Below, piece after piece: positions 12,351 through 36,308 of a stretch of DNA of 37,810 nt (position 1 is the stretch's first letter; every line of letters starts with the position of its first letter). The notes under the pieces are model-generated. The model was not told the origin of the DNA, made no database searches, and saw only the letters and a list, made by a program, of their open reading frames with translations. Made by a program: the position numbers and the translations under genes. The stretch comes from Bacillota bacterium (GTDB taxonomy: Bacteria > Bacillota > DTU030): positions 1 through 37,810 of the forward strand of contig JAAYTH010000042.1 of the NCBI GenBank assembly GCA_012523785.1, in the 5' to 3' direction.

Positions 12351-12387
12351 AATATTGCTTTGCTGTAACCACCCAACGGCAACCATT

Positions 12388-12468
12388 ATTGTCATCCTAA
12401 GGGAAGCGGGGGAGCCTCACGAAATAGAATGTAAAAATCCCCCGGCTAGGTGCCCTTAGGATGACAAT
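12388..12468. repeat. Palindromic repeat relic (REP/MITE-like) with perfect 16-bp terminal inverted repeats
   Basis: ATTGTCATCCTAAGGG (12388-12403) and CCCTTAGGATGACAAT (12453-12468) are exact reverse complements. Confidence 0.7.
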
Positions 12469-12508
12469 TAAGACCACCTATAAATTTTTAGCATCCTATG
12501 CTTTGTTT

Positions 12509-12534
12509 TTGTTACTAGGACCTAGTAGTAACAA
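12509..12534. repeat. Short inverted repeat in codY-flgB gap
   Basis: TTGTTACTA (12509-12517), 8-nt loop GGACCTAG, TAGTAACAA (12526-12534), perfect 9-bp arms. Confidence 0.6.
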
Positions 12535-12659
12535 TTTGCAAATAACACTAGGAAACTACAAAAAAGGTAATATTGGCAGAAAATATTTCCATCTCAGGTA
12601 GGAAAAAGAAGGTGTGATGTAGAACTATAAGATATCAACGGTAAATATACTCTTGTTGT

Positions 12660-12744
12660 ATCCCTGCCGGGGCAAACCTAGGGTGACCTAGGGGCGCAAA
12701 GCCATTGGATCTTGGTTGACCAAGATAGCCAGGTTGCCGGGGAT
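12660..12744 (+). ncRNA. Cyclic di-GMP-I (GEMM-I) riboswitch aptamer upstream of flgB
   Basis: Core GGGGCAAACC-[CCTAGG GTGA CCTAGG]-GGCGCAAAGCC-ATTGG-[ATCTTGG TTGA CCAAGAT]-AGCCAGGTTGCCGG matches GEMM-I consensus: GGCAAACC, GNRA-capped stem, CGCAAAGCC, second hairpin, AG(C)CAGGTT(A/G)CCG. P1 arms ATCC…CCGG / CCGGGGAT close the domain. Confidence 0.93.
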
Positions 12745-12780
12745 TTAACCCCGGTAATATCTACCGGGGCTGTTTATTAT
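12737..12780 (+). terminator. Riboswitch expression platform: alternative antiterminator and terminator hairpins
   Basis: CCGGGG(12737-12742)/CCCCGG(12749-12754) competes with CCCCGGTA(12749-12756)/TACCGGGG(12762-12769), the latter followed by CTGTTTATTAT. The upstream hairpin uses the aptamer P1 3' strand. Confidence 0.75.
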
Positions 12781-12808
12781 CACTGAATGTGACAAGGGGG
12801 AGAGATAT

Positions 12809-13198
12809 ATGCCTATTTGGGGGAGGGGAAACAATATAGACCTGCTGGGACAAGCCCTTGATTATGCTAGTCTTCGCCATCGCCTTCTAGCAGACAATAT
12901 TGCTAATGTGGAAACACCAGGCTACAAGCGCAAAGATGCTAATTTTAGCGCCTACTATCGCGCTGCTCTAGGGGCTAAGGTAACACATCCCGGCCATATA
13001 GCCATCAGCCCCAGATCCACTGCTATTTTAGATTCGGTTTTACCAAATAGTACTGCTAGAAATGATAACAACAATGTGGATATTGATCTGGAGATGGCGG
13101 AGCTGGCAAGAAATACCCTTTATTATCGAAGCCTCACTAGGCAAATATCCCAATCCTTAGCCAACTTAAAAATGGCAATCAGTGAAGGGAGGCGATAA
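12809..13198 (+). CDS. flgB: Flagellar basal-body rod protein FlgB
   Basis: LGQALDYASLRHRLLADNIANVETPGYKRKDANF; C-terminal ELARNTLYYRSLTRQISQSLANLKMAISEG. Confidence 0.97.
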   Translation: MPIWGRGNNIDLLGQALDYASLRHRLLADNIANVETPGYKRKDANFSAYYRAALGAKVTHPGHIAISPRSTAILDSVLPNSTARNDNNNVDIDLEMAELARNTLYYRSLTRQISQSLANLKMAISEGRR

Positions 13199-35684: not shown

Positions 35685-36308
35685 ATGCACATACTCAGCA
35701 TCAACCAAAAATTAAAAATACAGCCGATTTCACAAAAACAAGTATATACTACCTACATAACGGAAAAAACAGATGAACTTCTGACCATTGCTGCACCTAT
35801 GCATAAGAACCAGTTTATAACCTTCCCCTTAGGACAAATTTTAAAGTTATGGTATCCGGGATGCTATGCTGTTTATACCTTTACCAGCTCGATTGTTGGA
35901 AAAAAACCCGGACCGCCCCCTTTGCTGATAATAGAATATCCAAGCAAGTTTTATCGCAGCCAACGGCGACAATTTGTACGTCTTAAATCACTAATATCGG
36001 TAAAAGTAGAATTAACCGATTCACCCAAAACCTCATACCAAGGCCATGCTATTAATATCAGCGCCGGTGGGGTGTATCTGGTAATGGGGAAAAATTGTAA
36101 ACCCGGCACAGAAATTAACCTAACCCTGCAAAGACCATCCCTTCCCAAGATCCTGGGCAAGGTATTACGTTCCTACCCATCGACCCGCGGTGCCGGGCTA
36201 TGGGAATGGGCAGTAGAGTTTATTGATATTACAGAACAAGAACAAGACAAAATCACAAAGTTTATTTTTGCCAAACAGCTGGAACTGCGGCGCAGAGGGT
36301 TACTATAA
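35685..36308 (+). CDS. PilZ-domain flagellar brake-like protein (YcgR/YpfA family)
   Basis: C-terminal PilZ motifs RQFVR (RxxxR) and NISAGG ([D/N]xSxxG); N-terminal YcgR-like domain. Confidence 0.9.
   Translation: MHILSINQKLKIQPISQKQVYTTYITEKTDELLTIAAPMHKNQFITFPLGQILKLWYPGCYAVYTFTSSIVGKKPGPPPLLIIEYPSKFYRSQRRQFVRLKSLISVKVELTDSPKTSYQGHAINISAGGVYLVMGKNCKPGTEINLTLQRPSLPKILGKVLRSYPSTRGAGLWEWAVEFIDITEQEQDKITKFIFAKQLELRRRGLL

Follow-up and report, generated by a model that had tools for sequence, protein, structure and literature searches.

The flgB leader and its surroundings

The window (the whole 37,810-nt stretch of DNA that was analysed) comes from a 1.68-Mb draft Bacillota genome that carries three GEMM-I aptamers. 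One of these lies in the gap between codY and flgB (12351-12808), which contains every element named in a first-pass annotation of this DNA, each motif being found at the position given there (Table 1). flgB is the first gene of the flagellar operon; next come genes for a FlgC-like rod protein, FliE and FliF. A gene for a PilZ/YcgR-type c-di-GMP receptor closes the flagellar gene run, which the riboswitch would control, and this suggests that c-di-GMP may act both on flagellar transcription and on the motor. After codY (12388-12464) there is an imperfect palindrome (TGTCATCCTAAGGG...CCCTTAGGATGACA), of which two further copies are present in the genome at 72% identity (contigs C42 and C208) and which is possibly a small interspersed repeat.

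Upstream of the aptamer a motif search identified a sigma-H-like promoter from which transcription would be expected to start near 12631-12635. The sigma-H consensus is RnAGGAwWW-N11-12-RnnGAAT. The motif was seen in all four same-family leaders and, across the phylum, in 18 of 28 flgB leaders, with or without a riboswitch, where shuffled sequences predict 0.7. SigH itself, a stationary-phase/sporulation sigma factor, is encoded in the source genome (TIGR02859, 367.5 bits). A literature search linking sigma-H to flgB found no direct paper.

Table 1. Features of the flgB leader and flagellar gene run (positions in the window)
Feature	Position	Strand	Basis or remark
Sigma-H-like promoter, GTAGGAAAA-N12-GTAGAAC	12598-12625	+	Motif search; putative activity
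P1 5' strand, AUCCCUG	12660-12666	+	Pairs with 12738-12744; seven standard pairs in 4/4 same-family leaders
c-di-GMP-I (GEMM-I) aptamer, RF01051	12661-12741	+	59.8 bits, E 2.1e-9
Presumed G20 equivalent, model position 11	12671	+	Rfam alignment; marks c-di-GMP versus cGAMP
GNRA-capped stem, CCTAGG-GTGA-CCTAGG	12677-12692	+	Sequence and Rfam alignment; pairing retained in relatives
CGCAAA joining segment	12695-12700	+	Sequence
Second stem, ATCTTGG-TTGA-CCAAGAT	12709-12726	+	Continuous helix
CCGGGGAT, region of P1 3' strand	12737-12744	+	Sequence
Antiterminator hairpin, CCGGGG-AUUUAA-CCCCGG	12737-12754	+	-11.3 kcal/mol alone
P1 3' strand, CGGGGAU	12738-12744	+	Also used by antiterminator
Terminator hairpin, CCCCGGUA-AUAUC-UACCGGGG	12749-12769	+	-13.9 kcal/mol; equalled by 0/40 shuffles
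Terminator 5' arm, CCCCGGTA	12749-12756	+	Sequence
Terminator 3' arm, TACCGGGG	12762-12769	+	Sequence
Imperfect U-tract, CTGTTTATTAT	12770-12780	+	TTATTTATTATC or similar in G001, G003, G004
Likely ribosome-binding site, AAGGGGGAG	12794-12802	+	Just 5' of ATG
flgB	12809-13198	+	Identity to same-family FlgB
PilZ/YcgR-type c-di-GMP receptor gene	35685-36308	+	PilZNR 6.6e-14, PilZ 1.1e-13; far end of flagellar gene run

The c-di-GMP-I aptamer

The assignment to GEMM-I made in the first-pass annotation was borne out by the Rfam covariance model RF01051 (c-di-GMP-I), whose score stands against a gathering score of 35 and whose alignment is full length (model 1-87 of 87). This is the sole gathering-level Rfam match across the whole window; matches to mir-2767 and anti-hemB scored far under cut-off and were rejected. 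GGCAAA and CGCAAA link two stems (12671-12726), of which the first has a GNRA cap, and P1 is best described as seven pairs, conserved in four genomes. G at 12694, within GGGGCGC, departs from the consensus A and was considered as a defect, but several other aptamers share it and the idea was dropped. On those features of sequence and structure that are open to testing, the element is a member of RF01051.

Alternative helices and folding energetics

Between the aptamer and flgB, which lies directly downstream, there is a candidate intrinsic terminator whose hairpin was recovered independently by a pattern-based terminator scan. An antiterminator can be built from the P1 3' strand with the 5' arm of the terminator, and it is mutually exclusive with both P1 and the terminator, the former because bases 12738-12742 are common to both helices. 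When 12745-12808 was dinucleotide-shuffled 20,000 times, an 8-bp hairpin of any kind followed by a U-tract arose in 31 of the sequences, and in none was it accompanied by an overlapping 6-bp antiterminator partner for the P1 3' strand. This three-part test was substituted for shuffling just the stretch from the aptamer to the terminator arm, which is a poor control in that CCCCGG still pairs however it is shuffled.

Folding energies were calculated for the growing, ligand-free transcript from an assumed start at 12633, with tertiary contacts and the polymerase footprint ignored. At transcript ends 12756-12762 the antiterminator fold has -51.1 to -53.9 kcal/mol and the P1 fold -44.2 to -45.3 kcal/mol (-53.8 versus -44.9 kcal/mol at 12760), and from 12754 to 12768 the antiterminator makes up essentially the entire ligand-free ensemble. 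Only after the terminator 3' arm emerges does P1 plus terminator come within 1-2 kcal/mol of the antiterminator (-57.1 versus -58.8 kcal/mol at 12770). From these energies we infer that ligand-free RNA would be trapped in the read-through fold and that an aptamer bound early, with slow release, would be carried to the terminator fold. A transiently stable antiterminator and kinetic control of this kind have been described for the Cd1 riboswitch of Clostridioides difficile, and the cyclic-dinucleotide riboswitches studied have derived bound half-lives of 25-190 s (PMC9262584). One result counts against this explanation: in the leader of genome G001 other folds prevail in the predicted ligand-free ensemble before the terminator forms. 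The directly computed part of the explanation comprises the aptamer and the alternative helices, with their conservation and predicted energies.

Conservation in the family and across the phylum

Three other genomes of the family have a FlgB match (72, 65 and 63% identity) and in all three the aptamer is found upstream of flgB. Their leaders retain CCGGGGAU(U), CCCC(C)GG, CCGGGG and the TTATTTATTATC-like tail. The loops vary, from 6 to 8 nt in the antiterminator and from 5 to about 16 nt in the terminator, and the retention of P1, antiterminator, terminator and tail alongside this variation therefore indicates that the switch elements are conserved as elements. The first stem reads CCTAGG-GCGA-CTTAGG and CCCAAG-GTGA-CTTGGG in relatives, its pairing being preserved by changes on both sides. 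Judged from these sequences the switching helices are almost invariant within the family, and are thus backed by conservation, covariation being weak.

Across the phylum 52 sampled genomes have a FlgB match, and in at least 23 of them a GEMM-I aptamer is located upstream of that match at a distance of no more than about 240 nt. Carriers include Carboxydocella thermautotrophica, a Pelotomaculum MAG and two Symbiobacterium, one of which has the aptamer in tandem; a literature search on GEMM-I in Carboxydocella found nothing direct. Tandem GEMM-I aptamers were observed before flgB in L050 (G035) and in L093 (a Symbiobacterium thermophilum MAG). A hairpin with a U-rich tail is present between aptamer and flgB in 27 of 30 such leaders, several of these being no better than shuffles. 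In a simple pairing test on 22 leaders from other families, about half clearly allow the 3' strand of the aptamer to pair with the terminator 5' arm while the terminator is still incomplete. The exact antiterminator is therefore not universal and elsewhere, if present, is differently arranged.

Proposed mechanism

Taken with the anatomy of the leader, these data make it very probable that the c-di-GMP-I riboswitch is a kinetically controlled transcriptional OFF-switch of the flgB operon. When c-di-GMP is low, pairing of CCGGGG (12737-12742) with CCCCGG (12749-12754) would precede completion of the terminator, and polymerase would continue into flgB. If instead the aptamer has bound c-di-GMP early, before about 12754, P1 would retain its 3' strand, CCCCGGUA would be left to pair with UACCGGGG and transcription would stop near 12776-12780. 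Ligand binding, termination and the sigma-H-type start of transcription are the parts of this explanation that we infer. The interplay of P1, antiterminator and terminator had been proposed in the first-pass annotation, together with the OFF sign; the former is now backed by folding energies, shuffles and the pairing conserved in relatives, and the sign, as a prediction, by computation, by conservation in relatives and by its match to the Cd1 mechanism (PMC9262584, PMC6366702).

The annotation had also called the U-tract imperfect, which is correct, and an TTATTTATTATC-like tail is retained in relatives. Since the tract is interrupted, termination may be partial. The same imperfect tract (CUGUUUAUUAU) could be taken to mean that the hairpin lacks the strength to end transcription and that control is exerted via flgB translation or Rho. 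This is very improbable, in that the hairpin and U-rich tail are retained in four genomes despite differing loops, the ribosome-binding site lies outside every switching helix, and terminator-like hairpins occur in most aptamer-bearing flgB leaders, many of them with good U-tracts.

It is also very improbable that the element is an ON-switch in which bound ligand promotes read-through. GEMM-I switches of both signs are known, as in V. cholerae and Bc2 of Bacillus thuringiensis (PMC6366702), and membership of the family does not fix the sign, which consequently rests on the anatomy of the source leader itself. Here P1, which is required for binding, excludes the antiterminator and frees the terminator arm, and the flagellar target and the Cd1 precedent favour OFF. 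As the antiterminator is the ligand-free default and P1 plus terminator becomes competitive only when the terminator is complete, P1 held by ligand should terminate transcription.

Predicted ligand specificity and possible tertiary contact

Alignment to the RF01051 model places the set of bases that specifies c-di-GMP at G12671, A12698 and C12737. We take these to be G20, A47 and C92 in Vc2 numbering, C92 being the least certain. A G20A mutant of GEMM-I has been shown to bind cGAMP (PMC6274999). The related model RF03167 (c-di-GMP-I-GGC), which belongs to the same clan as RF01051, aligns to 12662-12742 in a local scan at 54.8 bits, under its gathering score of 59, and differs in its consensus CGCGAA, where the window has CGCAAA with A rather than G at 12698 (the A47 position); the element is not a member of that family. 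Two other aptamers of the source genome exceed the RF03167 cut-off.

The usual GEMM-I contact, between a GAAA loop and an 11-nt receptor, is common but not obligatory. Nearly all GAAA aptamers examined have the 11-nt receptor, either as such or in variant form. The second stem of the source aptamer lacks this receptor, and there is instead a GTGA loop with a CU:AG-containing helix. In group I introns GUGA loops have a known helix preference that fits a CU:AG second stem. A GNGA loop paired with a CU:AG second stem was found in all four family leaders, and also in L002 and L079 (12683-12726 region), which suggests an exchanged tertiary contact between a GNGA tetraloop and a plain helix.

It is extremely improbable that the aptamer has decayed or switched ligand (to cGAMP or as another variant) and lost its response to c-di-GMP: it scores below most aptamers of the phylum, lacks the 11-nt receptor and has the sub-threshold match to the GGC model, but it has the c-di-GMP set at the presumed G20, A47 and C92 equivalents, paired changes in relatives preserve its stems, and receptor loss accompanies the GNGA loop and CU:AG helix in all four family members. 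Five GGDEF domains in the source genome exceed the cut-off, four of them strongly and one more weakly, and one GGDEF protein with an intact motif (RYGGDEF) adjoins an HD-GYP-type protein on the same contig, so that c-di-GMP is probably both made and removed in this organism.

Other aptamers of the source genome

A second GEMM-I aptamer (L001, G000:C116:3130-3213) precedes by about 40 nt a camelysin/TasA-like gene that has a signal-peptidase-like gene nearby. The third (L002, G000:C106:2974-3053) has a GCGA loop and directly adjoins the ribosome-binding site of a gene for a secreted transglutaminase-like protein; its contig also carries GGDEF and HD-GYP-like genes. No obvious terminator was found between either aptamer and its downstream gene. 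It is possible that L001 is an ON-switch for a matrix gene. Tentatively, and with rather more doubt than confidence, the genome could be read as coupling a sigma-H promoter and a c-di-GMP OFF-switch at the flagellar operon to a terminator-less aptamer that is possibly ON for the TasA/camelysin-like matrix gene, with one ligand setting flagella and matrix oppositely via RNA alone.

Comparison with known riboswitches

Cd1 (Cdi1_3) of C. difficile lies before flgB and is OFF in vitro and in cells, and it yields a short terminated RNA (PMC6366702, PMC3649979). Its antiterminator is formed by strands T and A with H and its terminator by T and H (PMC9262584). The source leader shares with Cd1 the aptamer class, the target operon and the strand order (PMC9262584, PMC6366702, PMC3649979). 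In both, the P1 3' strand and a switching strand build the antiterminator and the switching and terminator strands the terminator; both are OFF with ligand, as a prediction for the source, and have an antiterminator that is just transiently stable. They differ in that the predicted terminator of the source leader is about 40 nt upstream of flgB, whereas in C. difficile 496 bp separate the promoter from flgB and the terminated RNA is about 160 nt, in the apparent GNGA contact of the source tetraloop with a plain helix, and in its putative sigma-H-type promoter. Bc1 and Bc2 of the Bacillus cereus group have the same aptamer class and likewise act on termination or read-through but have other targets, Bc2 being an ON-switch and Bc1 having a long platform with two terminators (PMC11218506, PMC6366702). 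The source switch is a well-supported but ordinary further example, in an uncultured lineage, of a mechanism proven in C. difficile.

The putative sigma-H promoter, if real, would tie the onset of flagellar expression to the transition-phase programme. The flgB switch is not confined to the pathogen C. difficile, as the order aptamer, terminator, flgB is found in many Bacillota families with differing terminator sequences, and harmless relatives with this arrangement offer systems in which c-di-GMP gating of flagellar operons may be tested.
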